Shown: positions 2,730 to 23,352 of the stretch, in pieces
Layout: each line of letters opens with the position of its first letter
Numbering within the stretch: position 1 is the first letter of the stretch
Origin: Candidatus Poribacteria bacterium
GTDB lineage: Bacteria > Poribacteria > WGA-4E > WGA-3G
DNA length: 64,000 nucleotides
Direction of reading: 5' to 3'
Assembly (NCBI GenBank): GCA_009839745.1
Contig: VXPE01000052.1
Coordinates: 1 to 64,000, forward strand
Notes under the pieces: generated by a model
Seen by the model: the letters and a program-made list of their open reading frames with translations, nothing else
Database searches by the model: none
Told to the model about the DNA's origin: nothing
Translations under genes and position numbers: made by a program

Positions 2730-3359
2730 TCAAGTTTCCGTGTACCATGCAATAGGTTCGTTTTGTAGGTAGGGAAGCAGCATTCTCCGAAGTTTCCGAC
2801 GGGCGTGATGTAAGTACGTTTTAACCGTGCTCTCCGACTTGCCCAAGCGTGATGCAATCTCTTTTATTGGGAGTCCTTCCCGGTGCCGTAGGTAAAAAAC
2901 ACTGCGTTGGGTAAGAGGCAGCTGGTAGGCGGCTTTACGGATAATCTCTTCGAGTTCTTTCCTTTCGAGAAGCTCACACGGTGAAGGTTGCACCTCGGCC
3001 ATTTGAAGTGTGTCGTCTGCGTTCTGCGGTAATTCCTCGAATCCTATAACATCGTGTCTATTGCGCTTACGGAGAAAGTCAATGCTACGATTGACAGCAA
3101 TTTGGTAAAGCCAACTGTAAAATACGGATTGCCCCTTGAAATTTGGCAATGCCTGCCACGCCTTCAGAAAGACCTCTTGGCAGAGGTCTTTCGCTGTCTC
3201 ACGGTCACAAACCTTGCGATAAATCAGATTATAGATTTTTTGTTGATATTTGTACACGAGTGGATTAAACGCCTCTGTATCACCATTTTGGGCGCGTGCG
3301 ACAAGTTCCTGCTCATCGAAATGGTTGAGTTCAGTATGTGTTGTTAAAACATTTCTCAT
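2730..3359 (-). CDS. RNA polymerase ECF-type sigma factor
   Basis: A 209-aa sigma-70 family protein of the ECF group. Region 2 spans about residues 30-100 (FNPLVYKYQQKIYNLIYRK, then the DLCQEVFLKAW core, then YQIAVNRSIDFLRKR). Region 4 spans about 140-192 with the helix-turn-helix IKEIASRLGKSESTVKTYLH. There is no obvious anti-sigma gene next to it. It lies at the 3' end of a minus-strand cluster of two ABC permeases, an ATPase, a NEW3 protein and TolC, which suggests that it controls, or is induced with, the export machinery. The start follows CCCAGGAGG at a good distance. Confidence 0.9.
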   Translation of the reverse strand: MRNVLTTHTELNHFDEQELVARAQNGDTEAFNPLVYKYQQKIYNLIYRKVCDRETAKDLCQEVFLKAWQALPNFKGQSVFYSWLYQIAVNRSIDFLRKRNRHDVIGFEELPQNADDTLQMAEVQPSPCELLERKELEEIIRKAAYQLPLTQRSVFYLRHREGLPIKEIASRLGKSESTVKTYLHHARRKLRRMLLPYLQNEPIAWYTET

Positions 3360-3456: not shown

Positions 3457-4845
3457 CTATTCGATCCATTGCATTGTTTCTCGGAGCTGTTCCTTTGCTT
3501 TGGCGTAATCTCGACGTGCCTGATAAAAAACACGTTGCGCCTCTGTAAATTGTGCTTGTGTTTGAAACGCATCGTTATAAGTCATATTTTGATACCCGGG
3601 TATTTCAACCGTGACTTCATCCAGCACGCGTTCTATTGTTCGTAACCTTTGCTCAAAAATTCTCACGCGTGTTTCTTCGATCTCCGCCCGTTCTTTGGCA
3701 TTCGCCACGGCACGGTAAGCCCGTCGCACCTCTACGCGGATTGACTTTGTTGTTTCGACGTATTCCAACTGAAGTCGTTCAAGTTCTGCGATTTCTACGG
3801 CGCGAAGATGCTTCGTTTTGTTCCCATCGTATAACGGAATATTGAAGTTAAAACGCACTTCCCACCCATCTTGTGTCCGTGGACGGGTTTGAAAGATACT
3901 GGATGCATCTCGCTCCCGATCGAGTATCACTGGATCGTAGAGTGCCTTTGCATCCCATGTTTGGTTCCGTTCGTGTTGTTCCAGCAGCACATGAAGGTCC
4001 TTGTAACGTGCTTCAGCAGAGAGTTCAGGAAATCGGTTCCAGATTGTCTCTGCGGCGAGACGTTCTTGACGCACGATATTGCCTTGTAAGTCGCGTAAAT
4101 TGAGATTATTTACGAGTGCAAGTTCAACTGCATTCTCTAATGTCAGGTCGTCCTCAGGGAGAGGGTCTGAGAGCGTAACTTGCGCCAGCGGATCAAGTCC
4201 GGTAAGGCGGATGAGTTCCGCGGTGTCTACATCCAATCTACGCTGCAGCTCATTGAGGGCAAGCTGCTGCTCGGAGAGTTCAAGTTCCGTATTGAGGCGA
4301 CTGAGGAAAGGGATCCGTTTTTCTGCGTGCTTGATTTGTGTGCCTTTCAGTTTTTTATTCAGTTCGACCTCGATCGCACGCCGTTCCTGAATCTCTTCCT
4401 GTGTCAGGACGATGTTGTTCCAAAGATTGCGGACATCGTGAACGCTCTGCTTTTTCGAGCGTTCATATTCAATCTCTGCCCTACGGACATCTTCCTGTGC
4501 GGCGTCAAGACCTTCGGGGATTTCGCCAAATTGGACAAGGAGCATACTCGCTTGTGCGCGGGTGAGATAGTCCCTTTCATCAATATCGCCATCTTTTTGG
4601 CGTTGATATTCACCGGTGACCCCCACCTGTGGTAGGTAAATGGCTTTGGACACTCGGAGGTTTGCTTTGGCGCGTTCCACCACTTTTTCTGCCTTTTTCA
4701 CGACTTCATTGTTCTGTAGCGCGAGTTCGATGGCGCGGGCTGGCTGAAGTATGACCAGCTGCTGCCCTGAGACGACGCTCCCAATGGTAAAGAATAGGCA
4801 GATCGCTAATACTTTTGTTAACCTCTTGTTCACTACTATCTCCAT
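3457..4845 (-). CDS. TolC-family outer membrane efflux protein
   Basis: A 462-aa protein with an N-terminal signal peptide (hydrophobic stretch VLAICLFFTIGSVVSG at about 12-27) followed by the two repeated OEP halves typical of TolC. Helical-hairpin signatures include ARAIELALQNNEVVKKAEK near the start of the first half and LENAVELALVNNLNLRDLQ near the start of the second, plus long coiled-coil-prone segments rich in E, Q, R and A. Length is usual for the family. It should form the outer-membrane exit duct of a tripartite pump. The ABC transporter genes directly upstream on the same strand are the obvious partner. No canonical HlyD/MFP adaptor gene is present; the coiled-coil NEW3 protein between them could fill that place, but this is inference. 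Confidence 0.9.
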   Translation of the reverse strand: MEIVVNKRLTKVLAICLFFTIGSVVSGQQLVILQPARAIELALQNNEVVKKAEKVVERAKANLRVSKAIYLPQVGVTGEYQRQKDGDIDERDYLTRAQASMLLVQFGEIPEGLDAAQEDVRRAEIEYERSKKQSVHDVRNLWNNIVLTQEEIQERRAIEVELNKKLKGTQIKHAEKRIPFLSRLNTELELSEQQLALNELQRRLDVDTAELIRLTGLDPLAQVTLSDPLPEDDLTLENAVELALVNNLNLRDLQGNIVRQERLAAETIWNRFPELSAEARYKDLHVLLEQHERNQTWDAKALYDPVILDRERDASSIFQTRPRTQDGWEVRFNFNIPLYDGNKTKHLRAVEIAELERLQLEYVETTKSIRVEVRRAYRAVANAKERAEIEETRVRIFEQRLRTIERVLDEVTVEIPGYQNMTYNDAFQTQAQFTEAQRVFYQARRDYAKAKEQLRETMQWIE

Positions 4846-4968
4846 TTCAATAGTTATCGGTTATCAGTTGTGAGTTAAAGAAAATTTTGATAGTTCTAAC
4901 ACCTCTTGGCACTGATAACCGACCACTGAGAGGAAAACCCGAAGGGTTTCCGTACTGACGGTTATTCT

Positions 4969-7320
4969 TCAACGCCGACTAATACGGACTGTGACGATAA
5001 CAATCCCAATCATCAGGAGGATCAAGGCACCGAACAGGAGCGTCGTCACCGACATTTGTGTCTGAGACTCGACTTGCACCGTGATCGAACGGTCGCGTGC
5101 TTCAAACTTACGATTGTCGACAGTGACTTCTGCGTTCAACTTCGCTTGGTATTCTCCCACGCCGATGTCCACAGGTGGACTCAGCGTCAATTGAATGTCT
5201 GTCTCCTCGTTTCGTTCCAATGCGCCGACAACTTCAGGGATAACCGTGTATTTCCAATCCGTGTTGACATCGACAAGCATACGAATGTCCACGAGGTCGC
5301 GGGTGCCTATGTTCTTTAGCGTCGCTGTCATGTTGACTTCTTCGCCTATCTTGATCGTCTGGAAGGCGTTCGGCACGAACACCTCAATCTCCGGCACACC
5401 CTTTGGAATCAACTCGAACCGCTCGACACCGCCTTGTATATTCGCAATCCTATCGGCAGGTAAATCCAAGCGATTGTTCACACCCCCGAGTTCATTCGCT
5501 TCCGCCTCATCAATCACAGCTACATAGAACTCAAGCGTGTTATCGAGGTAGGACGCATCGAGTTCCTCCGGGAGATAGACAATCAATGACAGATCCCGCT
5601 TTGACTGTTCTTGCGTGAACTTTACCTGAGACTGTCGAGATTGCGTCTCTGGGTCTTGGAATTCAAAGGAGAGGCGGTTGAGAAGGTTAATAACGCGGAG
5701 TTGGAAGGTGTTCTCCGTTTCTGCCAACCGATCGAGCGTCAAATCGTAGGTGACACTGCTGCCTAAGTTCCCTTCCTGTGAAAAGCGGAGCGAGCTGACG
5801 TTTACCACATCCAACGCAGATTCTTTTTGCAGATAGATGAGTCGCGTTTCGGGTTCGTCAAGTTCGGGGTAATCTAACGATACCTTCAAACTCTCGACAT
5901 CTTTCTGAAGTTGGAACGTCAATTCCGCTGTTTCATTGTAGCCGAGAACCGGGATCTTCTCTTCATACGGTTTAACGATGTTCGTGTCATCGGTAACATC
6001 GAGTAAGGAGACATAGATGCCGCGAATCTCATTTGCGGCTGCAATCTCTTCAGGGGTCGCGTTGACGGGCATTGCCTCGGTCGTAGATGTGTTTTTTAGT
6101 TGAATCGTCACCATCATTTGGTTGTCGACGCGAAACTTCTTCGCACTCAGGATAGAGATGTAGCGTGTGTCCTCCTCAAGATGAATTTTGTAAGAAATAT
6201 CCTTATCCAGGTATTTGAGATTAACAGTGAGGTTATCCACATTCCGCCGCAGTTCAAAGTCGAGGGTTTTCTCCTGTCCGTCTTTCAGCGTTGGAATGCG
6301 GGGTTCATAAGGATAGCCGATGATGGATTCCGTGTCGTCTTTAATGGAGACATAGACGTTATTGATTTCTTGTGCCGTGTTGGTACCTGTTTCTTCTGTT
6401 TCGCCTTCCAAGGCACCGTAGGTCAGAACAACTTCCAGACGCCGCCGATCCGCCTCCTTATAACGTCTCGCCGATACCACAGAGATATACGGGTCATCCT
6501 GTTTAAGGTGGATGTTCTTCTGCTCCTCACGCCCCGAGTACGTCAACTCGACGACGACATCCCGCACGTTTTCTTTAATGAGCTCAAACTCCAGGGTAAC
6601 AGACTCCCCCTCTTTGAGCGTCTCAATCCGTTGTTCGTAAGGTTCGGTGATCGTCGCTCCGCTGGTGCCATACCCTTCCTGCTCTTTAATCTCGACGAAG
6701 ATGTCGTCAATCTGTGCGCTGATGATAATCTCGCGGCCCAACACTTTCGAGCTTTCAACGAGTTTGACCGGCACTGAACTGTTCCGCAAGGTAATTGAGA
6801 ACAACTCCCGTCCATCAGCGGATTCATAGAGTCTTGTCTTTTCAACGGTGATATGCCACTCATCTTGCAGCGACTCAAGTTCTGTCTGTTGGAGCGTCAA
6901 TTTTGCCTGTTCATATTCATCGACGGCGCGTTCGTAAGCCTCTTCTGCAGTATTCACCTCCGAGACGGTGACGATGTTGTTTTCCTCCATCAGCATCGCC
7001 TTGAGGTTTTCGAGCTCCACCTGCTTCTTTTTCATTAGATTTTCTGCCAACTCCATCTTCAGGCGATCGATTTCTATCAGGATTTGGCGGCTCTGTTCCT
7101 CTTTCGTTTTCGGGCTGTTATCGTTAACAGGCGGGATCTCTTCTGGCACTGCTGCCAATGGAACAGACAGTGATACCGCTATCGCGCTCATAAATATCAG
7201 TGCAAACGTCAAAGACTGAAAGCAGGAATGGAAGGATGGATGGGTGGAAGGATAGGTGCCCAATCTCCCAATCTTCCAATCTTCCAATCTTCTCTTCCTT
7301 TTTTTCTTGCATCCATCCAT
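4969..7320 (-). CDS. Membrane-anchored NEW3-type multi-domain protein
   Basis: Up to 783 aa. A hydrophobic signal segment (LTFALIFMSAIAVSLSVPLA, about 37-56) is followed by a charged coiled coil (about 70-165), several beta-rich repeats of about 100 aa recognisable by PYEPRIPTLKDG / PYEEKIPVLGYN-like lines, a C-terminal domain like the NEW3/CARDB Ig fold (PEIEVFVPN..GEEVNMTATLKNIG), and a last transmembrane helix (about 757-779) ending in RISRR. This matches the COG1470-like proteins found next to ABC-2 exporters. The start is uncertain: codons 1-35 lie in a low-complexity repeat, and starts at about 7212 (TTG) or 7191 (ATG) are also possible. Likely exposed outside the cytoplasmic membrane, working with the transporter genes around it. 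Confidence 0.75.
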   Translation of the reverse strand: MDGCKKKRKRRLEDWKIGRLGTYPSTHPSFHSCFQSLTFALIFMSAIAVSLSVPLAAVPEEIPPVNDNSPKTKEEQSRQILIEIDRLKMELAENLMKKKQVELENLKAMLMEENNIVTVSEVNTAEEAYERAVDEYEQAKLTLQQTELESLQDEWHITVEKTRLYESADGRELFSITLRNSSVPVKLVESSKVLGREIIISAQIDDIFVEIKEQEGYGTSGATITEPYEQRIETLKEGESVTLEFELIKENVRDVVVELTYSGREEQKNIHLKQDDPYISVVSARRYKEADRRRLEVVLTYGALEGETEETGTNTAQEINNVYVSIKDDTESIIGYPYEPRIPTLKDGQEKTLDFELRRNVDNLTVNLKYLDKDISYKIHLEEDTRYISILSAKKFRVDNQMMVTIQLKNTSTTEAMPVNATPEEIAAANEIRGIYVSLLDVTDDTNIVKPYEEKIPVLGYNETAELTFQLQKDVESLKVSLDYPELDEPETRLIYLQKESALDVVNVSSLRFSQEGNLGSSVTYDLTLDRLAETENTFQLRVINLLNRLSFEFQDPETQSRQSQVKFTQEQSKRDLSLIVYLPEELDASYLDNTLEFYVAVIDEAEANELGGVNNRLDLPADRIANIQGGVERFELIPKGVPEIEVFVPNAFQTIKIGEEVNMTATLKNIGTRDLVDIRMLVDVNTDWKYTVIPEVVGALERNEETDIQLTLSPPVDIGVGEYQAKLNAEVTVDNRKFEARDRSITVQVESQTQMSVTTLLFGALILLMIGIVIVTVRISRR
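7259..7291 (-). repeat. 8-bp tandem repeat at the 5' end of the NEW3-protein gene
   Basis: On the minus strand AAGATTGG is repeated three times and followed by GAGATTGG. Four 8-bp units lie just inside the longest reading frame. A gain or loss of one unit would shift the frame relative to the ATG at 7320. Confidence 0.65.
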
Positions 7321-7347
7321 AGTTTTATCCTTCTAATCCAGTTCGGT

Positions 7348-8073
7348 TTAAACTTCTTCCGGTTCGTATCCAGCAACATAGTGCAGATACAACGTCTCAA
7401 GGTTTTCTTTGAGAATTTCTTCGCGTGTCAACTCGCGTTCAAGGTTGCCTTCCACGAGAATGCCGATCCTGTCAGCGATCTCCTTGGCACGAAAGATGTC
7501 GTGCGTAGACATGAAGATGGCTTTGCCTTCCTCTCTCAACTCACGAAGAAGATTCAGGAAATCGGCACCCCCTTTGGGGTCCAAACCCGAAGTCGGCTCA
7601 TCGAGGAGAACGGCTTGTGCATTCTTCATGATCGCAATGGCAATGCCCAAGCGTTGGCGCATTCCTTTGGAAAAGGTCTTGACGCGCCGTGTAAAGGCTG
7701 CCTCCGGTAAACCGACACGTCCAAGCGTCGCATCGAGGTCCGCGTTGGATACCTTCTTGCGTCCACCGAGCTTCGCGAAGAAGGATAGGTTTTGACGCGC
7801 CGTAAAATTTCGATAGAGTTCAACGTTTTCAGAGACGTAGGCGAGATGCTTCTTTGCCTCCAGTGGGAACTTTGGAATCTCAATGTCGCCTACCAAGGCA
7901 GTGCCGCTTGTGGGTTCGATGAAGTTCAGCAGCATGGAGATGGTCGTGCTTTTCCCAGCACCGTTCGCGCCGAGGACAACATAAATTTCGCCATCGTCCA
8001 CTTTCAGGTTCAACTTGTTAACAGCTAAAACGCTTTCGTTATAAACTTTCGTAAGATCACGGGTTTCTAACAT
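7348..8073 (-). CDS. ABC transporter ATP-binding protein
   Basis: A 241-aa ATPase with all motifs: Walker A GANGAGKST (35-43), signature FSKGMRQ, Walker B AVLLDEP, D-loop SGLD and H-loop STHD. It is closest in style to the CcmA/GldA/NatA-like ATPases that drive ABC-2 exporters. The start follows the strong SD GGAGG at 8080-8085. Two ABC-2 permease genes lie immediately upstream in the same direction, so a complex of one ATPase with two different permeases is likely. It exports an unknown substrate, perhaps in gliding, envelope or efflux function. Confidence 0.93.
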   Translation of the reverse strand: MLETRDLTKVYNESVLAVNKLNLKVDDGEIYVVLGANGAGKSTTISMLLNFIEPTSGTALVGDIEIPKFPLEAKKHLAYVSENVELYRNFTARQNLSFFAKLGGRKKVSNADLDATLGRVGLPEAAFTRRVKTFSKGMRQRLGIAIAIMKNAQAVLLDEPTSGLDPKGGADFLNLLRELREEGKAIFMSTHDIFRAKEIADRIGILVEGNLERELTREEILKENLETLYLHYVAGYEPEEV

Positions 8074-8182
8074 GAGGTTCCTCCTACGGTTGATTTTTCT
8101 CTAATGGTACTGGAAATATAAGGAATTTTCAAGGAAGAATTTTATTTCTCCTTTTAGTGATGGGCTTATGGGCTGCAGATAT

Positions 8183-9730
8183 TCATACCTCCGAACGTAT
8201 GAAAACGAGGAATGCTCCGGAAAGAAACACAACGAACAGCAACATAAGCAGTAGTATATCCACCATTGCCGCGTTGACCGTATCGCTGAAAGTAATCTTA
8301 TCCTCATAAGTTGGGAGTGCCCTTGACGAGATCGGCTTTTTAGACATACCCTCAGGGATACCGATAATATGAGGACTCTCTGTATCGGCGCGGTCGGTTT
8401 CAACAATGAAGTTTCTGAATGCCTTTATATGAATATCTACACGCGCAAGGAATTGCAAATGGCGATTCAACCCGGTGCCTGCCATGGATTCAAGGGCGTA
8501 TTCGACTATCGCCGCTGGAGAGAAACGGGTAATGCCTCGTGCACGCTGGACCTGTGCGATTTGTGCCGCTAAATGCGCTCTGTTCAGTCTTTCCCGAATC
8601 TCCACATCTTTGTTGACAAATTCAGCCTTGATCTGTAATTCCCCTGAATCTACCTCTCTGGATTGCAACTTTGCCAATTCCGATGTTAAGGCTTCCTCCT
8701 TCCCTGCCGCGAATTCTCCTGCCTTTTCGGGCGAAGTTTTTATAAGTTGCATAAATTCACTCAGAAAGCTGCTGACTTGTAATTTGGCTTCCAGTTGTGC
8801 GTAAAAACTTTCATCAACCTGATCAAGAGCACTCGCTTTTGCCATTTCCCGTTGGTGGACGGTTTGGACGGGTGCCATCCATTTCTGGGCAAGCGTGCCG
8901 AGGGTAGAAGGCATAAACACGACAAGTGCCACCCAGATTATCAACAGGATGACGAGACTCACGCGGCTCTCTCGGGTGCTCGCCGACACCATCAATCCTA
9001 TCGCGATAAAGATGCCAGCATAGCCTGACGCAATCAGGACGATCATGCCCAAACGGCCCCAGTCTGCCGCTCCGAACTGTGTCCAACTGTCCGTGGAAAT
9101 CACTGCCAGATTCAGCAACACCGCAAAATAGAAGGGGAGTAGGACCGTTAGGAGGGTCCCCAAAAACTTTCCAACTAACAGGGCAGGACGCGATATCGGA
9201 TTCGCGAGGCACAGTCGAAGCGTTCCCCTTTCTCTTTCGCCAGAGAGGGCATCAAACGTAAACAGAAGCGGGATAAAGGAGAGCAGATAGGTGATGATGA
9301 ACACCCAATCTATTTTTGTCGCCGCGGGACGAAGATCTCGCACATTCGGGTTGACGGTGGAATAATCCAGCGACCAGATACTTTTTACTGATACGCCTGG
9401 GAACGTTTCTTTACGCCAAGACCCCCAATTGTTCGTTCCTTGCCCCGGCAAAAACGTCTCGCTACCGGCTGCAATGAAGGTCAGCGGAGAGGGGCGTTTG
9501 TAAAGCGCACCGGGCCCCTCTTGTAGCAGAGAATAGAGATCCGTCTGGGACTGCAATTCATTTCGGGAGGTGTTAACATTCTCGGAATACTTCCGGACCT
9601 TAGCTGGGTGTGTCTGAAGATGCACGACAGCGTTGGTTACCATTAATGCTGACATCACCAAGACAGTCAAGGCAAAACGCAGACTATTGAGATGGTCTAA
9701 GAATTCGCGTTTGATAACATGTCCGATCAT
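8183..9730 (-). CDS. ABC-2 type transporter permease
   Basis: A 515-aa membrane protein. An N-terminal helix (about 14-34) is followed by a large soluble loop (about 36-140), then a group of five transmembrane segments with the ABC-2 signature GERERGTLRLCLANPISRP (about 164-182), another large loop (about 285-480) and a final helix. The two large loops on the outer face match the DUF3526/GldG-like permeases. It is a paralog of the next permease upstream, with the same topology and the related motif GDWEAGTLRLVISHPVRR. Its start has the SD GAAGGAGAAAG. The two probably form a heterodimer with the ATPase. Confidence 0.85.
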   Translation of the reverse strand: MIGHVIKREFLDHLNSLRFALTVLVMSALMVTNAVVHLQTHPAKVRKYSENVNTSRNELQSQTDLYSLLQEGPGALYKRPSPLTFIAAGSETFLPGQGTNNWGSWRKETFPGVSVKSIWSLDYSTVNPNVRDLRPAATKIDWVFIITYLLSFIPLLFTFDALSGERERGTLRLCLANPISRPALLVGKFLGTLLTVLLPFYFAVLLNLAVISTDSWTQFGAADWGRLGMIVLIASGYAGIFIAIGLMVSASTRESRVSLVILLIIWVALVVFMPSTLGTLAQKWMAPVQTVHQREMAKASALDQVDESFYAQLEAKLQVSSFLSEFMQLIKTSPEKAGEFAAGKEEALTSELAKLQSREVDSGELQIKAEFVNKDVEIRERLNRAHLAAQIAQVQRARGITRFSPAAIVEYALESMAGTGLNRHLQFLARVDIHIKAFRNFIVETDRADTESPHIIGIPEGMSKKPISSRALPTYEDKITFSDTVNAAMVDILLLMLLFVVFLSGAFLVFIRSEV

Positions 9731-9762
9731 CGTACTTTCTCCTTCAGAAGTTACCTGTCCAG

Positions 9763-11238
9763 CTATACCTCAATTTTGACAAAAATCAAGATTGCCACCA
9801 TGAATAGGACGATATTGATTAACAATAGCAAAAACAATTCTGGCAGGGCGCGCTGCGCGTTTACGTTAACATCTACTTGCTGGAAAGTAAACCGAGGTAA
9901 ATCCCACCAATCTACTCTCCCTTTGTCAGACGCGAACCAGAGTCGACTTGCGAATGCGTCTCTGTCATGGAAATAGTCAATTAACGTTTGGCGATACCTC
10001 TGTGTAGCACGACTAAAATCTAACATCCCATCCAAGTCAGTACCCGCCCAAGCAGAGGTCGCGAACGTATACAAGCTTGCAGGACTGAGTTTCATCAACC
10101 TTTCATCCCATTTCGACTGCCGGATATCTGTTCGTGCCAAGCCTTGTTCACGTATCAATGCAGCCTTTTCTGCGAGACGGATATGCATCGCATTGATGAA
10201 CGCGTGGTAATTTTGGAAAGGCGAGATGAACGGTTCTGAAGCCGTATTCACTTGATACATATTGAGCCTATATCTTCTGTCAGCACGCAAGGATGCCCCT
10301 GAATAGCCTATATTAAACCTGGGAGGATCCCCCTCCAGGGGACTGTTTGCTAAGAACTGTTGTTTTTCTCTCTCGGCTTCTTCCCACATCTGCTCAATTT
10401 GTTGGCTCACGGATTGTTTTTCGGCGCGTATATCGCCCCCCGGATTCATGGAAAACCGACTCCAGTTGGGATAAACAAGCACCAAAGTCACCCAGAAGAA
10501 CATGCAGAGGATCAGGGACGTAGCCGTGCGGCGAGTCGTCACAGAAATCAACAACCCGATCAGGTAGAAGAGGGACAAGTAGACAATTGTCGTCAAAACG
10601 ATCCCACCAATCCGGAGGAAATCCTGTCCGTTGAGTTGAATTGAATTCGCGAGAGAGCAAAGAAGCAGCACTATCAGTAAGCTCATTAGCACAGGGAGTA
10701 GCAAGCAGATCATCGCAGCGATATATTTACCAAGCAAAATTCCGCCGCGTCGAACCGGGTGTGAGATAACCAGACGTAAGGTGCCAGCTTCCCAATCTCC
10801 CGCAATCGCATCATAAGCGAAAAGCAAGGCGAGAAGACTCAGCACCACTTGAAAGACAGAGACCAAGTCTACCTTTGAAAAGAGATTCAAATACGGATTC
10901 TCCAGATTTCGCCCGGAAACACTTGAAATCAACGGGACACTCCCATGATCAATTTCAACAGTCGTCCCCAGTCGCTTGTCTAATCCTGTGCTAAAGAGAC
11001 TTAAAGGGTTCGGAGTCCGCTCGACGAACAGTTCTAACATCGAATAGGTGGGGGCACTCACCGCTTTCTCACGATGAACCTTTGCTTGCTGGCTGGAACT
11101 CGCCACTCGGCTTTCATGATCATCAATTAGCACAATTGTATTGGCAACAACGAGCAGAAGCGTAATCAGGAAGGCAGCAAGGAACCGCGCGCTCATGAGA
11201 TGGGTTAAGAGTTCTTGGCGTATCAGGGTGCCTAACAT
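9763..11238 (-). CDS. ABC-2 type transporter permease
   Basis: A 491-aa membrane protein of the same architecture as its neighbour: an N-terminal helix (residues 17-37), a periplasmic loop, then transmembrane segments around the signature GDWEAGTLRLVISHPVRR (about 145-162), a second long loop and a final helix at the C-terminus. It is the first gene of the export cluster (permease, permease, ATPase, NEW3 protein, TolC, ECF sigma). The start follows AGGAAGGATC, and a sigma-28-like 35-bp element lies 28 bp upstream of the ATG, so this is probably the promoter-proximal gene of the operon. Confidence 0.85.
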   Translation of the reverse strand: MLGTLIRQELLTHLMSARFLAAFLITLLLVVANTIVLIDDHESRVASSSQQAKVHREKAVSAPTYSMLELFVERTPNPLSLFSTGLDKRLGTTVEIDHGSVPLISSVSGRNLENPYLNLFSKVDLVSVFQVVLSLLALLFAYDAIAGDWEAGTLRLVISHPVRRGGILLGKYIAAMICLLLPVLMSLLIVLLLCSLANSIQLNGQDFLRIGGIVLTTIVYLSLFYLIGLLISVTTRRTATSLILCMFFWVTLVLVYPNWSRFSMNPGGDIRAEKQSVSQQIEQMWEEAEREKQQFLANSPLEGDPPRFNIGYSGASLRADRRYRLNMYQVNTASEPFISPFQNYHAFINAMHIRLAEKAALIREQGLARTDIRQSKWDERLMKLSPASLYTFATSAWAGTDLDGMLDFSRATQRYRQTLIDYFHDRDAFASRLWFASDKGRVDWWDLPRFTFQQVDVNVNAQRALPELFLLLLINIVLFMVAILIFVKIEV

Positions 11239-11265: not shown

Positions 11266-11300
11266 TTAATTATATGCAGCTAAATCCAAAATCTTTAGTT
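11266..11300 (-). promoter_or_regulatory. 35-bp sigma-28-like promoter element, copy 1
   Basis: On the minus strand it begins AACTAAAGATTT and ends GCATATAATTAA. The same 35-bp layout without gaps occurs at 21309-21343 and 22897-22931, each upstream of a minus-strand gene. TAAAG-TTT and the following GC..ATATA resemble a FliA/SigB-type promoter. This copy ends 28 bp before the ABC permease start. Confidence 0.5.
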
Positions 11301-11330
11301 TTTTTAAGATGTACGCTTGAATGTAATAAC

Positions 11331-11546: not shown

Positions 11547-13628
11547 TCACTTCACTTTAATGACAACAAGCGTCACGTCATCCGCTTGGGGTTTACCGTT
11601 TGCCCAGGATGTACTTGCCTTGAAGATGTGGTCAATAATCGCTTGCGGGGATTGGGTTGCCACCTCCGTAAACAAATTTTTTGTCTTTGGATAGTCTAGC
11701 ATTTCATTTTCCGGATTCAACATCTCTGGCAAACCGTCACTCATGAGCAAGAGGGTATCGCCGCTGTGGAGTTCGTACGACATCTCTTCTCGCTCGGATC
11801 CGATAGACCAGCCGAGGGGCGTGCCTTCAAGGAATATCTCCTCAACTCTGTTTTCGTTCGCTATATAGAAGAGGGCAGGTGGCATTCCAGCACCTGTCAG
11901 TGTTAGTGTGTTGTGATTTACTGTAGCGAGCATCATCGCCATGGATAATCTTTTCAGATTCATGCTCTTAATACCCTGGGAGATATGATCGAGCGTTTCC
12001 AAGTTGTCAGCGTCTTGTGCTGAGGTCTTGAAAAGGCCCTTAACAGCGGAAACCACGAGTCCAGCATTCATGCCGTGTCCTGTTGCATCCCCGATGGCGA
12101 ATGTAAGCCGACCGTTCTCGCTGAGAGTGTAGTCATAATAGTCGCCCCCAACTTCCGTTGCGGGTTGCATCTTAAAGGCGACATCAAGGTTAGGAAGTTC
12201 CGGTGGGGTTTGCGGCAGCATTGACACCTGAAGGTCATGTGCTGCTGCAAACTCTTCTGTTTTACGGGCGTTTTCGGCTGCTAACAATTTTCGCTCAAAT
12301 ACCTCAGTTTCGAGTTGGCGGCGGCTCCGGGCGAAGTTGCGAGCAAGATAAACCGACATCGGAAAAAAGGGAACAAGTGCACTAAATTTCCAACTAATGT
12401 ATATTGTGGTAATATGTGTTGGGAAAAAAATATACGCGAGCGGCAGGATAAAAGGGGCGAACGAGCCGATTCCAAAAATCCACGCGTCATCTTTTTTCTT
12501 AGAGATGGCGACGATAATTACCCGTGCCATCTCTAAAAATGTGAGGCTTGTAAACAGGAATAGAAGTGAAAGTGTTAGTCCTACACTCTCCGAAACCCTG
12601 ATATTGTGGGTCCCATCAGACCAGCTTGAATGGGGTGTACTTTCACTAATGGGCGGAAAGCCTGACTTAAGACTCAGGAGACCCACGCAGAGTGTTACAC
12701 CCCAGCCAATAAGAAAGCCCCAAAAAGATTTTGGCAGTTTTACATAGAAAAGCGTGTACAGAAACAGCAGGGCTGCCAAGAACATCAGGACATAAACGCA
12801 GATAAGGAGTTGAAGCAGGTGTAGAATATGGGTTCCATTTGTCGTCAACAAGGTAAATTGGTGCAGAAAAAAAACAAACGTCCCGATACTCCCCGTTAAG
12901 ATAGAAAAATATAAGTTTTCCCGCATGCGAGGGTAAAAGATAAATAACAACAGGTGCTGCAGCATCAGAAAAGCCGAGATCGCTGTCCACACCATCTGAA
13001 AAGTAGTGCCTTGGCGAACTGTGTTGACACGTTTTTTAATGCTTGCGTTTAGCGGGGTGAGACTCAAACTGAAGCCGAGGAAGGGGCTCGATTGATGGAG
13101 CAAGAAATTGGAATATCGAACCGCGATGAGATGATCAGTTTTACCCGAAAACGAAATCGCCTGTGGATTTCGCTCCCAATAGGGTTCCTCTTCCCCTTGT
13201 CGTGTTCCTACTTTACCGAATTTATAAATCAGTTTTCCGTCGAGATAGATTTCAGATGCCCCCATTTGATACACCACATGGAGGGCTAACGGCATATTCC
13301 AAAGCTGCTCATCAGCAACGGAGAGATGAAGTCTGAACCATCCAATACCCTGCCATCCACCCTCGGGCAAGGCATTGGGAGATAACAATATGCTCGTGGA
13401 TTCCCACGCTGTATCATCGAAAGTTGGACTCGCCCATTCCAAGTTATCGCCTGGGTGATACTTCCAAGAGGCACTCGACCAATTTACCCTCCCCGAATTC
13501 ACAGTTTCTAACGTCAGGACGTATACGTCGGTGCCCGGTATAATTTCAGTTTCGTGGGCAGACACTTGTGATATGAATATGAGTCCTATTAAAATGAGAT
13601 AGAACCTTAGAATTACCCTGTGTTTCAT
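11547..13628 (-). CDS. Membrane SpoIIE-type PP2C phosphatase with extracellular sensor and 7-TM region
   Basis: About 693 aa from the ATG at 13628; a TTG 45 bp upstream is possible but less likely. Order: signal peptide; a jelly-roll, galactose-binding-like outer domain (about 30-190, with FRLHLSVADEQLWN and ASEIYLDGKLIYKFG); seven transmembrane helices (about 200-410); a coiled linker (RRQLETEVFERKLLAAENAR); and a C-terminal PP2C/SpoIIE domain with metal-binding GGDYYDY, GDATGHG and SDGLPE. It fits the 7TMR-DISM signal receptors. Known relatives dephosphorylate STAS anti-sigma antagonists. A STAS protein with the target serine is at 21640-21981 and a suitable sigma factor at 22140-22817, so it probably heads a partner-switching pathway that senses an outside ligand. 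No anti-sigma kinase is seen in the window. Confidence 0.88.
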   Translation of the reverse strand: MKHRVILRFYLILIGLIFISQVSAHETEIIPGTDVYVLTLETVNSGRVNWSSASWKYHPGDNLEWASPTFDDTAWESTSILLSPNALPEGGWQGIGWFRLHLSVADEQLWNMPLALHVVYQMGASEIYLDGKLIYKFGKVGTRQGEEEPYWERNPQAISFSGKTDHLIAVRYSNFLLHQSSPFLGFSLSLTPLNASIKKRVNTVRQGTTFQMVWTAISAFLMLQHLLLFIFYPRMRENLYFSILTGSIGTFVFFLHQFTLLTTNGTHILHLLQLLICVYVLMFLAALLFLYTLFYVKLPKSFWGFLIGWGVTLCVGLLSLKSGFPPISESTPHSSWSDGTHNIRVSESVGLTLSLLFLFTSLTFLEMARVIIVAISKKKDDAWIFGIGSFAPFILPLAYIFFPTHITTIYISWKFSALVPFFPMSVYLARNFARSRRQLETEVFERKLLAAENARKTEEFAAAHDLQVSMLPQTPPELPNLDVAFKMQPATEVGGDYYDYTLSENGRLTFAIGDATGHGMNAGLVVSAVKGLFKTSAQDADNLETLDHISQGIKSMNLKRLSMAMMLATVNHNTLTLTGAGMPPALFYIANENRVEEIFLEGTPLGWSIGSEREEMSYELHSGDTLLLMSDGLPEMLNPENEMLDYPKTKNLFTEVATQSPQAIIDHIFKASTSWANGKPQADDVTLVVIKVK

Positions 13629-13634
13629 ACCAAT

Positions 13635-13768
13635 ACCTTTGCCAAAGAAGAATTGAATAGATAGGGAAACCAATATGCCAAAGTGATGGATGAAGAAACC
13701 ATAGTGTGAACAGGAGAATGCCTATGTATGAAATTATATCACTTTTTAGCGTTTTACATCTACATTAA
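13635..13768. repeat. Diverged direct repeat, copy 2 (partner at 11331-11460)
   Basis: Same ordered blocks as copy 1: CAAAGAAGAATTGA, GGAAACCAATA, ATGTATGAAATTATATCACT. On the minus strand TGATATAAT again forms an extended -10-like site, here upstream of the SpoIIE gene. It ends just before the MITE-like element. Confidence 0.6.
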
Positions 13769-17814: not shown

Positions 17815-18282
17815 TCATCGAATGGGTTGTGAAGCGATTTCAAAGAATTGTAGTCCTATTTCTAATCCATCAAGTGTTGCTACCTGAACATGGCTAAAGA
17901 GTGTCTCCTCATCCATGTAGATAACCACTCGACCAAGATCGTCGGATTGAACTCGAAAGGATCCGCGTTCCCACGAAACACGGGCTATTTTACGAGGCGT
18001 TCTTTTCAACTTCGTTGGAGGTTTCGTGTGTTTGAGTGCATTGATATTGGACACGCTGGGAACCGCCATGATTTGGCAGACGAGCGGATCTATACTCGGT
18101 TCAAACATGCCGGCTTTCAAGCGATGGTAGAGATCCTCTGTGACATCTTTCGCCTTCCCAAAGTCGCTGATGTCTTTTGGTTTATTCCCACATCCGCTCC
18201 AGATAAGTGCTATGATGCCTATGAGGAGTGCCAATGCCTTACCGGGGTGGCGAAATGAGTTCGTGGCAGTTATCATATCCAT
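17815..18282 (-). CDS. Lipoprotein with GSFRV-type beta domain
   Basis: 155 aa. Signal peptide KALALLIGIIALIWSGC with a lipobox cysteine at about 31, then a linker, then a C-terminal domain (VSWERGSFRVQSDDLGRVVIYMDEE..HVQVAT) clearly related to the last 90 residues of the protein at 13908-15011. Its first 44 bp overlap the 3' end of the cytochrome-like gene at 18239, so translation is coupled. Together, the upstream gene and this one equal the single fused protein encoded at 13908-15011. The 17646-17814 spacer downstream contains no gene that I can see. Confidence 0.7.
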   Translation of the reverse strand: MDMITATNSFRHPGKALALLIGIIALIWSGCGNKPKDISDFGKAKDVTEDLYHRLKAGMFEPSIDPLVCQIMAVPSVSNINALKHTKPPTKLKRTPRKIARVSWERGSFRVQSDDLGRVVIYMDEETLFSHVQVATLDGLEIGLQFFEIASQPIR

Positions 18283-19108
18283 GGCAAGAGGTACATCCTT
18301 GTGCTAATGTTGTGATGCCTTCAATAACAGGGTGAATCAGTTCTGGGACATCAAATACTGTGTCTTGTCCGTAGGATGCAAGTTCCAAAACTTCGTTGGG
18401 TGTGCTCACTCGGACAATTCCCAAGGGCCGGATTTTGGGGTTTACCCAGATTTCTATTGGGGCGGAATTCGTCCCAAACTCAACACGGTAGTGAATACAA
18501 TCGAACAGACCCGCTGGGGTTTTCGTTTCACTTTCCTCCAGTTTGACGAGGGTCGCTAAGGGAGTGGAAACTTGTTGACAAAAATCATCTCGCCTGGGAA
18601 CATAATTCCTCACAAAATGAAATCGCGGGGTTTCAGAGGTGATACGTAGATCCGTGGGCGAGACTAACCGATAGATATCCTTGGGGATCGCACGAAAAAA
18701 AGCGAGGCCCGTTTTTCGCATCCAGTAACGACTCTGTCCCAATGTGCTTAGTTCTCCGATAATATGAAATTTCACATCCCTCGCAGACAAACGCGCTTGC
18801 ATTGCATCGGACTTGAAATGTTGCTCCAGTAGAGATGAGACTATAGCAGACTTTTGGTTGTATTGATATTCCGCATAGTCCCCGATTTGCCACTGTTTTA
18901 CCCCCAGTTGAGAGGGTGAGATTAAATTCAGTGTATAGGCGATATCGTCCGTAGGGCATTCTCGGACTCCAACATCTTCATAAGAAGCTCCTTTTAAAAC
19001 AGAGAGGCTGACTAAGAGAGCACCTGCAAGGCATACGGAGATGAGGAGGCTCATTCGCCACCCTTGAAGGTTTTGGTGAAGGAGATTTTTGAGTTTGTTT
19101 CCCTGCAT
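18239..19108 (-). CDS. Monoheme c-type cytochrome-like protein
   Basis: 289 aa from the ATG at 19108 (SD GAGAGGAC). A membrane anchor (LLISVCLAGALLVSLSVL) is followed by a domain with QLGVKQWQIGD, RYWMRKTGLAFF, GLFDCIHYRVEF and IEIWVNPKIRPLGIVRV, each with a counterpart in the protein at 13908-15011. A single CTSCH heme motif (C272-H276) lies near the C-terminus, closely followed by CHE. Unlike its paralog it stops soon after the heme motif; the missing C-terminal domain is encoded by the overlapping lipoprotein gene downstream. Likely a periplasmic electron carrier anchored in the inner membrane. Confidence 0.72.
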   Translation of the reverse strand: MQGNKLKNLLHQNLQGWRMSLLISVCLAGALLVSLSVLKGASYEDVGVRECPTDDIAYTLNLISPSQLGVKQWQIGDYAEYQYNQKSAIVSSLLEQHFKSDAMQARLSARDVKFHIIGELSTLGQSRYWMRKTGLAFFRAIPKDIYRLVSPTDLRITSETPRFHFVRNYVPRRDDFCQQVSTPLATLVKLEESETKTPAGLFDCIHYRVEFGTNSAPIEIWVNPKIRPLGIVRVSTPNEVLELASYGQDTVFDVPELIHPVIEGITTLAQGCTSCHGYDNCHELISPPR

Positions 19109-19124
19109 AATATCTGTCCTCTCA

Positions 19125-19889
19125 TCACTGCGTGCTGCTATTTGGGGGCCAGGGGGCAACTGTTTTAGGAACGAGTTCTTTGCGTCGCTTATCAACGAAC
19201 GGCAATACAAATTGCTTCTCTGTTGCTTTCTTTGGTACTACCACTATTGTTGCTGTCTGTTCGCCAAGAATTTCATGCCAGACACGAATTGTGTGAGTGC
19301 CGGCAGGAACATTCTCCAGTCTAAAAACCCCTTCTTCATCTGTGACAGTGTAAAATGGGTGTGTGAAGACCAAGATGTAGGCTTTCATCCATGTATGTGT
19401 ATCGCACTCTACGCGATAGGTGCCTGCCCATCTGAACTTCCGCTTGAACTTCTGATTCGGATTCAAAAGGGTTATATTGAAGATAGTCTTTTGATTGTTC
19501 CACCACCCGTGTGGGTTATGTGTTACCTTATCACCGCTGTTGAGCATCAAATAATTCTCGAGTCGCGTTGCTTGAACGCGTGGATGAAACCGACACCCTC
19601 GACTCTGAAGATGTATAGGGGTAGGCAGTTTTCCAGCGGTGGGGACCTCCGTTTGCCAGTCCAGGGATACCACTGCCCCCTGAATGCCTCGGTTTTGAAC
19701 CATCAGTACAGCATCTGTCAAGGTTTCCCCGCAAAATTCAACGTTTTTATCTACTGCAATTTGGGGTAATGCTGGTGGCTCTCTGTCTAAAAAAATTTTG
19801 CCAGTAATTCTGCCTGTGCCTTCGTCAGCGGGTAGAAGTCCGGCATAGATTAGCAGAAAATTGAGAAGTAAAAAAGATGTGTGTTTCAT
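19125..19889 (-). CDS. Secreted cupredoxin-like / carboxypeptidase-regulatory-like protein
   Basis: A 254-aa exported protein (signal peptide about 1-20). The first half reads as an Ig-like beta domain; the C-terminal part has VTDEEGVFRLENVPAGTHTI, typical of carboxypeptidase-regulatory-like folds. In between, H124 (in HNPH), C162, H165 and M168 (CDTHTWM) give the His-Cys-His-Met set used by blue-copper proteins, although the Cys-His-Met spacing is tighter than in plastocyanin. Such proteins often sit beside cytochrome c peroxidases, as here: its start overlaps the stop of the di-heme peroxidase gene (ATGA). The CxxCH protein follows 16 bp downstream. Copper-dependent electron transfer is likely but unproven. 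Confidence 0.65.
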   Translation of the reverse strand: MKHTSFLLLNFLLIYAGLLPADEGTGRITGKIFLDREPPALPQIAVDKNVEFCGETLTDAVLMVQNRGIQGAVVSLDWQTEVPTAGKLPTPIHLQSRGCRFHPRVQATRLENYLMLNSGDKVTHNPHGWWNNQKTIFNITLLNPNQKFKRKFRWAGTYRVECDTHTWMKAYILVFTHPFYTVTDEEGVFRLENVPAGTHTIRVWHEILGEQTATIVVVPKKATEKQFVLPFVDKRRKELVPKTVAPWPPNSSTQ

Positions 19890-20896
19890 TGTGCAAGTCC
19901 CTTGAGTTCTTCAACCGTCACTGAAAAAACTGGACCGGTAAGACTTTTCAAAAAAGCCAGTAAATCCGCTTTTTCTGCGTCGGTGAGTTCAATAGGTTTC
20001 ATTTCTTTGTCGAGGTTGAGGTTAGGACGACCTCCTTGGTCGTAAAATGCGATAACATCTTCAAGGCGTGCTAAGCTGCCGTCGTGCATATAAGGCGCTG
20101 TTAGTTCAATGTTTCTCAAGGAGGGTGTTTTGAACTTGCCAAAATCAGCGGAATCGCCCGTCACCGCGGCACGTCCCGCATCCTGCTGACCCGCACCTTC
20201 ACCAGCGCCGATGTTGTGAAATTGCTCGTCTGTAAAATTAGTGCCGATGTGACATGTGTTACATCTCGCTTTGCCTCGAAACAGGACGAGTCCTCTCGCG
20301 GCACTCTCACTCAGAGCAGGTTTCTCGCCCTCCCACTCATACCGATCAAAAGCCGTTTCGCCCGTGAGGAGTGTCCGTTCAAAACAGGCAATGGCTTTGC
20401 CGACACTCTCTACTGAGGGCTCAGAGGTTCCAAATGCCTCATAAAAGAGGTTTTGATAAGTTGCATCTGTCTTCAATCTTTGCAGGAGCAAGTTTTCGTT
20501 CATCCCCATCTCGTCGGGATTGAAGAGGGGTCCCAATGCTTGAGATTCCAATGTTGCCGCGCGGCCATCCCAGAATTGGGCATTCCCATAGAGCCGATTC
20601 ACAAGGGTTGGCACGTTTCGGCTACCTTTCCGCCCTGAGACTCCTTCAGTAACAGCCAACCCATTTGAAAAACCTTGCCCTGGGTCATGACACGTCGCAC
20701 AACTGAGGCTTCCATCAAGACTCAACTGTTTGTCAAAAAAGAGGCGTTTACCGAGTCTGACTTTTTCCGCAGTTATCGGGTTGTCTATTGGAATCTCAAA
20801 ATCGGGCTCAAGCCCTAAGGGCCAGTCACCCTCTGGTATATTTCCCTCCCCTTTTGAGAGACTAAAGATGAATAAAAAAATCAAGAAAACTTTCAT
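19886..20896 (-). CDS. Di-heme cytochrome c peroxidase (CcpA/MauG family)
   Basis: A 336-aa secreted protein with a short signal peptide and two heme c motifs, CATCH (66-70) and CNTCH (212-216), spaced as in bacterial cytochrome c peroxidases. Family landmarks include LGKRLFFDKQLS before the first heme, RNVPTLVN and QFWDGRA after it, and KFKTPSLRNIELTAPYMHDG near the end, the last carrying the methionine and histidine that fit the distal heme pocket. It would reduce hydrogen peroxide in the periplasm, or, as MauG-like members do, modify a partner protein. It overlaps the cupredoxin-like gene by 4 bp, which suggests that they function together. Confidence 0.9.
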   Translation of the reverse strand: MKVFLIFLFIFSLSKGEGNIPEGDWPLGLEPDFEIPIDNPITAEKVRLGKRLFFDKQLSLDGSLSCATCHDPGQGFSNGLAVTEGVSGRKGSRNVPTLVNRLYGNAQFWDGRAATLESQALGPLFNPDEMGMNENLLLQRLKTDATYQNLFYEAFGTSEPSVESVGKAIACFERTLLTGETAFDRYEWEGEKPALSESAARGLVLFRGKARCNTCHIGTNFTDEQFHNIGAGEGAGQQDAGRAAVTGDSADFGKFKTPSLRNIELTAPYMHDGSLARLEDVIAFYDQGGRPNLNLDKEMKPIELTDAEKADLLAFLKSLTGPVFSVTVEELKGLAQ

Positions 20897-20925
20897 TTAT
20901 CAAAACCTCTATGATATGGAGATGC

Positions 20926-20947
20926 GGGGAAACCGTAAAGTTTCCCC
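20926..20947. repeat. Intergenic hairpin GGGGAAAC/GTTTCCCC
   Basis: A perfect 8-bp stem with a 6-base loop between the peroxidase gene and the 59-aa gene. No T tract, so it is not a clear terminator. It may stabilise or process the operon mRNA. Three GGGTTA units follow at about 20959-20977. Confidence 0.5.
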
Positions 20948-20973
20948 GGCATACTTAGGGGTTAGGGTTAGGG

Positions 20974-21153
20974 TTAGTCCGTATATGTTTCTATCCCGAA
21001 ATGTACACTACCTACCCCAATGTAAGTCTCGCTGGTATGATGTGACTGAGCCAAGCTGTCGGTATCAAAACTGCCTATCATAAGCATCGCGCCAAAAATC
21101 AACGCGGCTGTGAGTAGAGTAACTTGGACGATACGTCGAAACTTTGCTAACAT
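20974..21153 (-). CDS. Small secreted or membrane protein, 59 aa
   Basis: A reading frame from the ATG at 21153 to the TAA at 20974-20976. SD GGAGG stands 10 bp before the ATG. The sequence begins MLAKFRRIVQVTLLTAALIF, a basic start followed by a hydrophobic stretch, and passes DSLAQS (a possible signal-peptidase site) to a short polar tail. It is the first gene after the sigma-28-like element at 21309-21343, followed by the peroxidase, cupredoxin-like and cytochrome-like genes on the same strand. No family is recognised. It may be a leader or a small subunit of the redox complex. Confidence 0.6.
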   Translation of the reverse strand: MLAKFRRIVQVTLLTAALIFGAMLMIGSFDTDSLAQSHHTSETYIGVGSVHFGIETYTD

Positions 21154-21308: not shown

Positions 21309-21343
21309 TTAATTATATGTAGCCGAGACGGAAACCTTTAGTT
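21309..21343 (-). promoter_or_regulatory. 35-bp sigma-28-like promoter element, copy 2
   Basis: On the minus strand AACTAAAGGTTT then GGCTACATATAATTAA, the same gapless layout as at 11266-11300 and 22897-22931. It lies 156 bp upstream of the 59-aa gene that begins the redox operon. The rest of 21154-21639 holds a MITE-like element and a terminator. Confidence 0.5.
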
Positions 21344-21583: not shown

Positions 21584-21616
21584 AAAAAAACGGGGGTGAT
21601 TTTACCACCCCCGTTT
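21584..21616 (-). terminator. Rho-independent terminator of the STAS gene
   Basis: On the minus strand AAACGGGGGTG, a 7-base loop, CACCCCCGTTT and a run of T. It sits 24 bp past the stop of the STAS gene. Confidence 0.9.
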
Positions 21617-22896: not shown

Positions 22897-22931
22897 TTAA
22901 CTATATACCGCCAAACCCAAAACCTTTAGTT
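22897..22931 (-). promoter_or_regulatory. 35-bp sigma-28-like promoter element, copy 3
   Basis: On the minus strand AACTAAAGGTTTTGGG then GGCGGTATATAGTTAA. TAAAG-TTT and GCGGTATA come closest of the three copies to the sigma-28 consensus (TAAAGTTT, GCCGATAA), though the spacer is about 2 bp shorter. It lies upstream of the sigma-factor gene. Between 22932 and 23255 I see no gene. Confidence 0.5.
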
Positions 22932-23255
22932 TTTTTTCAAAAAATATGAGTTTAACGTGAGGACTTACCTTCTAACGCAACCATCAAAAAAAAACGAAAC
23001 TAAACTATCAGGGTAAAACGTTCTGATGTCCCTCTATGAACCCTTTTAAGCAAGTTTCGTGCCAATTCCTAAAATAAACGTCTTTTTGCTCCCAAATTTG
23101 TTAGAACTTCAAGCGTCTATTTGAGAAGAGAATCGCCTAAAATACACGGACGGCTTAGCTTGTTAGATCCATTAACAGCGTTTCCTTCTCCTTAAAAATA
23201 AAATATTATTGCCGCAGAGATGGAACATATTCGTATGAACTCAAGGCTTGTCTAT

Positions 23256-23352
23256 ACGCAAAAATTGTAGGTTGACACGCAAAAATTGTAGGTTGACACG
23301 CAAAAATTGTAGGTTGACACGCAAAAATTGTAGGTTGACACGTAAAAAATTG
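23256..23352. repeat. 21-bp tandem repeat array
   Basis: ACGCAAAAATTGTAGGTTGAC is repeated four times exactly (23256-23339) plus a degenerate fifth start. TTGACA appears at each junction. There are no spacers, so it is not a CRISPR array. Confidence 0.9.

Follow-up and report, generated by a model that had tools for sequence, protein, structure and literature searches.

Introduction

Candidatus Poribacteria are symbionts of sponges. A 64-kb stretch of DNA from one such bacterium, here referred to as the window, carries a 35-bp element three times on the minus strand, in each case ahead of an operon, and one of the three copies precedes a gene for a sigma factor. The locus raises the question of which factor reads this element and how far the resulting regulon extends. 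A first-pass annotation had described the element as a sigma-28-like promoter that joins the sigma gene, a redox operon and an ABC exporter operon in one autoregulated regulon. A sigma factor with an assigned promoter permits genes that are switched together to be predicted from sequence. Here, the genes under the element are a MauG-like redox operon and an ABC exporter, while those found elsewhere encode small exported or beta-propeller proteins. No description of this sigma factor was found in the open full-text literature, and the Poribacteria genome and expression papers that were checked make no mention of sigma factors.

Three Elements in One Gene Cluster

The three elements are present without gaps exactly where they had been placed (Table 1), and the distances of 80, 156 and 28 bp given from the elements to the first start codon of the sigma, redox and exporter operons are likewise correct. 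One target needs refinement, as the redox operon is indeed headed by an element but opens with a 59-aa ORF, the peroxidase-like gene being second. Pairwise, the elements agree at 26, 27 and 29 of 35 positions, 24 of which are invariant; no unrelated 35-mer in the window has more than 20–22 positions in common with any of them.

Table 1. Predicted promoter elements and genes of the cluster, in window coordinates.
Feature	Position	Strand	Remarks
35-bp element, predicted promoter of the sigma gene	22897-22931	-	AACTAAAGGTTTTGGGTTTGGCGGTATATAGTTAA; -35 CTAAAG, -10 TATAGT; 80 bp before ATG
A8 tract, UP-element-like	22930-22937	-	just upstream of the -35 of the sigma-gene element
Sigma factor, 225 aa	22140-22817	-	cysteine-rich N-terminus; divergent region 2 (~48-96); region 4 (151-200); region 3 undetected
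STAS-domain protein, anti-anti-sigma-like, 113 aa	21640-21981	-	DSTGLG site; follows the sigma gene
Intrinsic terminator, strong	21588-21616	-	13-pair stem; after the sigma-STAS pair
35-bp element ahead of the redox operon	21309-21343	-	AACTAAAGGTTTCCGTCTCGGCTACATATAATTAA; -10 TATAAT; weak A-tract
59-aa ORF	~20974-21153	-	N-terminus resembles a signal peptide; opens the operon behind the 21309 element; from sequence and translation
MauG/MbnH-like enzyme	19886-20896	-	di-haem cytochrome c peroxidase family
Carboxypeptidase-regulatory-like protein	19125-19889	-	redox operon
CxxCH protein	18239-19210	-	redox operon
155-aa protein	17815-18282	-	redox operon
Membrane protein with C-terminal SpoIIE-type phosphatase domain	11547-13673	-	candidate STAS activator
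7-A tract	11299-11305		precedes the 11266-11300 element
35-bp element ahead of the ABC exporter operon	11266-11300	-	AACTAAAGATTTTGGATTTAGCTGCATATAATTAA; -10 TATAAT
ABC exporter operon	3457-11238	-	
ABC-2 permeases (two)	9763-11238, 8183-9730	-	exporter operon
ATPase	7348-8073	-	exporter operon
783-aa protein	4969-7320	-	exporter operon
TolC-like OEP	3457-4845	-	exporter operon
Second, ordinary ECF sigma gene	2730-3359	-	~98 bp after the TolC-like gene; may be the last gene of the exporter operon

The 5.04-Mb genome was scanned with the pattern CTAAAGNTTTNNNNNTNNGCNNNATATANTTAA and up to three mismatches. The scan returned exactly three matches, namely the three elements, all at operons of the cluster, whereas the reversed pattern gave none in the same genome and 100 dinucleotide shuffles of the window contained no match either. 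Exact matches to a shorter core are again limited to the three elements in the whole genome. When up to two mismatches are allowed, the core has 255 sites as opposed to 370 for the reversed control, a genome total lower than that of the control. Since no further sites rise above control genome-wide, the regulon is, as far as sequence can show, a local one of three promoters within ~12 kb, all located in one ~20-kb cluster. A genome-wide regulon in this genome was rejected, as sites with one or two mismatches are no commoner than those of the reversed control.

Upstream of the predicted sigma promoter lies a 21-bp tandem repeat of 4.4 copies (ACGCAAAAATTGTAGGTTGAC; 23256-23348). Within the redox operon, the 59-aa ORF, which ends in SETYIGVGSVHFGIETYTD, adjoins the MauG/MbnH-like gene (19886-21153, minus strand) and could encode a modified peptide or a substrate.

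Anatomy of the Predicted Promoter

The element would consist of an UP-like A-tract, a -35 of the form CTAAAG-n-TTT and a -10 (TATAAT or TATAGT) about 17 bp further on. Across 51 elements compared, CTAAA(G/C)-n-TTT is followed by a variable spacer biased to GA and CG and then by ATATA(A)T, and most copies carry an A5 tract at a fixed offset upstream of the -35. TAAA(G/C)-n-TTT is present in nearly all of the 51, which places a TAAAG -35 and a T-rich stretch at the spacing of sigma-28 promoters. The consensus promoter of FliA is TAAAGTTT-n11-GCCGATAA (PMC2859248). The window elements, two with TATAAT and one with TATAGT as the -10, at 17 bp from TAAAGN, do not carry the sigma-28-type -10 GCCGATAA. 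CCGATAT occurs at the -10 only in order-level relatives (e.g., L136 and L138), and the description as sigma-28-like is therefore fully right for the -35, which equals that of sigma-28, but only partly for the -10.

The -10 leaves room for another reading, in which the elements are promoters of the housekeeping sigma factor and CTAAAG-n-TTT serves to bind a local activator or repressor instead of acting as the -35 of the linked sigma factor. Since the -10 is close to that of housekeeping promoters, an activator together with the housekeeping sigma factor could use the same sites; most copies do hold a good TATAAT-like -10 at the housekeeping position, and A-tracts are not specific to any sigma factor. 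However, the distance between the motif and the -10 is constant, and the motif itself matches the -35 of sigma factors with a region 4 of the kind described below. Furthermore, no DNA-binding regulator besides the sigma factor accompanies the element among the loci compared, where the recurrent genes are those for the sigma factor and the STAS protein, and the presence of the element tracks the sigma gene. A housekeeping origin of the promoters is thus considered improbable.

The Sigma Protein

Recognition of the -35 would fall to region 4 of the sigma protein, which gives a clear Pfam match (2e-13) and has its closest solved structures, by PDB profile search, in WhiG (3e-10), SigF (6e-9) and FliA (5e-8). 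Region 4 (SEGRVSQ), previously called FliA/SigB-like, is accordingly related to WhiG, FliA and SigF, but the protein as a whole falls outside the FliA and SigB families: its score is 62.7 bits for FliA_WhiG (TIGR02479; cut-off 189.6) and 60.5 for NF005413 (cut-off 201), with only region 4 aligned in both cases, and 42.7 for the SigBFG family (cut-off 234.35). Membership in the FliA/WhiG family was rejected on these scores and on the failure to detect a complete set of regions 2, 3 and 4. The family matches listed for 30 members of the sigma group do not include Sigma70_r3, and the fold model shows a low-confidence linker at residues 100–113.

The protein follows the ECF layout, with regions 2 and 4 only and a short linker, and the generic sigma70-ECF model TIGR02937 covers residues 44–201 at 77.8 bits (cut-off 42.9). 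Region 2 is divergent; the Sigma70_r2 Pfam model scores 12.5 bits against a cut-off of 24 on the window protein and matches 15 of 30 members at E up to 1, and the fold match to region 2 of sigma-E is weak. The fold model of the whole protein resembles sigma factors.

The N-terminus contains the motifs CPF, C-x2-C and K-S-R-(V/I)-C. The conserved cysteines are C13, C32-x2-C35 and C84, the last located in region 2, and all four residues are invariant in 23 aligned members. Metal or redox sensing by these cysteines is a suggestion that draws on CorE-type ECF sigma factors, where a cysteine-rich domain senses metal; by this analogy, the signal might be perceived by the sigma factor itself. The cysteines here are, however, N-terminal or within region 2 and not part of a C-terminal tail, and the putative site is a prediction from sequence, as the N-terminal 100 residues by themselves gave no significant match in a PDB fold search (best: sigma region 2, TM 0.54).

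The system combines features that are usually found apart, namely a two-domain sigma factor, a sigma-28-like -35, a cysteine-rich N-terminus and linkage to a STAS gene. It appears to be a variant on a known theme, that of an autoregulated, cluster-specific alternative sigma factor, here with a cysteine-rich N-terminus. A more far-reaching proposal, which we regard as tentative and rather unlikely, is a lineage-specific class of two-domain sigma factors in which C13, C32, C35 and C84 bind a metal or form a redox switch, the sigma factor itself sensing the signal and driving, by way of a hybrid promoter (sigma-28-like -35, TATAAT -10), a regulon that is self-contained and specific to its cluster.

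Co-occurrence of Element and Sigma Factor Within the Genus

The sigma factor of the window and its orthologs, together termed sigma-A, were compared across 38 genomes of the genus using the core pattern CTAAASNTTTN12YATAT, with reversed patterns as controls. Eight further genomes of the genus have orthologs at 49–62% identity, in some cases as two or three copies. The core pattern has 29 matches in the 38 genomes, 27 of them in the nine ortholog-carrying genomes and two in the 29 others (genome-level Fisher p = 3e-7), as opposed to 16 matches of the reversed controls, one of which falls in the nine sigma-carrying genomes. This distribution also bears on the possibility that a different sigma factor, such as the ECF factor of the window or those of a sister clade, reads the elements and that the sigma-A gene is merely one target. 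There is no shortage of candidates, given ~35 region-2 matches and hence dozens of other sigma factors in the genome, among them the ECF factor that closes the exporter cluster; yet genomes with sister-clade sigma factors but without sigma-A almost all lack the element, the exceptions being the two matches above, and no relative of the ECF factor was seen in the homologous loci compared. Reading by another sigma factor is therefore held to be very improbable.

Of the 14 orthologs in the genus, 12 have the element immediately upstream. In G021 an ORF for a DDE transposase lies between the two, and in G033 the element is found ~520 bp upstream. Further copies precede neighboring genes, many of which are short ORFs with signal-peptide-like starts. 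Decaying copies that retain their promoters are seen at two loci (L056 and L067): G011 has a truncated sigma gene with both elements still present, and G029, which has no sigma-A ortholog, holds two elements 73 bp apart before the same family of exported proteins, apparently as if a sigma gene had been deleted from between them.

No cargo function shared across the sigma-A loci was found, and the redox and exporter genes of the window have no counterparts in the other loci compared. Conserved runs of unnamed genes follow sigma-A elements in G003 (L048:7727-12317) and G006 (L044:13207-16486); two of the genes are short with signal-peptide-like starts, and most have no Pfam match. In G060, a Hen1/Pnkp RNA-repair pair lies just after the sigma-STAS module (L050:2175-6154, minus strand); the pair has no detected element ahead of it and, like other genes near the sigma gene of relatives that lack one, is not counted as a regulon member.

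Conservation Beyond the Genus

A matrix trained on the elements of the genus only was applied to orthologs from outside it, drawn from a different genus of the family and from a different family of the order. It matches within 400 bp of 14 of the 17 testable orthologs (scores 7.8–28.5; ~0.2 expected by chance), with the A-tract at a fixed distance, whereas resampled upstream sequences give a chance rate of 1.3% per region at the loosest threshold and 0.1% at the next. The remaining three (L125, L127, and L131) have no same-strand element nearby: inspection by eye places one on the other strand in L127, where it faces the divergent STAS gene, in L131 the element lies 3 kb upstream of the sigma ortholog, and in L125 the matrix found none near it. 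Conversely, in the sister clade, which is 29–40% identical to sigma-A and has the cysteine-rich N-terminus in common with it, the matrix found no element upstream of 23 sigma genes. A shared promoter for both clades was rejected on this result, the best score being 6.4.

Spacer sequence is common to some copies within a locus, which makes duplication of promoters probable. The same observation could be taken to mean that the elements are copies of a mobile repeat or resemble each other by chance. Shuffled sequences and the rest of the genome are nevertheless free of copies, the element keeps its position before genes in three genera, and the spacers have diverged among copies while the -35, the -10 and the A-tract have been kept. 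An origin as chance similarity or mobile repeat was rejected, as it is contradicted by the core-pattern counts in the genus and by the matrix and resampling results; its probability is taken to be negligible.

The co-occurrence within the genus, the 14 of 17 orthologs outside it and the absence from the sister clade together make the element very probably the cognate, autoregulatory promoter of sigma-A, and recognition by sigma-A is strongly supported by this co-conservation. The comparison thus supports the promoter nature of the element, its link to the adjacent sigma gene and the autoregulation that had been proposed, the regulon itself shrinking to three local promoters. The recurrence of the pairing in distant relatives points to a regulatory module, of which no earlier description was found. 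A relative of the sigma factor is encoded on RKRR01000002.1 of Candidatus Poribacteria bacterium PNGco_C_binSS2.

Proposed Partner-Switching Control of the Sigma Factor

A STAS gene is linked to the sigma gene in 11 of 13 intact loci of the genus, in several family-level loci and, within short flanks, in at least 16 of 29 sister-clade loci. Linkage of a SpoIIE-type phosphatase was seen in the window cluster only. Of the three components that normally make up a partner-switching system, this cluster thus has two. The third, an anti-sigma kinase (HATPase_c_2), was not seen in the window cluster; four lie above the cut-off elsewhere in the genome. Partner-switching control is suggested by the linkage of the STAS and SpoIIE-phosphatase genes. 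An anti-sigma factor would probably sequester the sigma factor, the STAS protein encoded next to it would free it, and this STAS protein would itself probably be dephosphorylated by the membrane phosphatase of the cluster. Once released, the sigma factor would activate its own gene, together with that of the STAS protein, and the redox and exporter operons, forming a self-amplifying switch for one cluster. This account as a whole, from cognate promoter through local self-amplification to release by partner switching, is judged likely with good confidence.

Relation to Known Systems

The TAAAG-n-TTT -35, its near-identical spacing to the -10 and region 4 are shared with sigma-28 (FliA/SigD), as is the CCGATAT -10 of order-level relatives. 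The TATAAT/TATAGT -10, the undetected region 3, the cysteine-rich N-terminus and the scores below the FliA/WhiG cut-off set the system apart from sigma-28, as do the genes under the elements, none of which is flagellar. ECF (group 4) sigma factors are similarly small and composed of regions 2 and 4 only, and positive autoregulation is common among them. In contrast to ECF systems, the promoter has no GGAAC or CGTC, and linkage to STAS and SpoIIE genes takes the place of a membrane anti-sigma factor. An antagonist gene next to the sigma gene, a SpoIIE-type phosphatase in the cluster and a predicted autoregulated sigma operon recall the partner switching of SigB and of SpoIIAA-SpoIIAB-SpoIIE, from which the present cluster differs in the absence of a HATPase anti-sigma kinase and in a sigma factor without detectable region 3. 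Elsewhere in the genome, on contigs C5, C6, C58, C91, C101 and C132, Sigma70 region 2 matches lie in open frames of ~970–1070 codons, corresponding to sigma factors with very long extensions.
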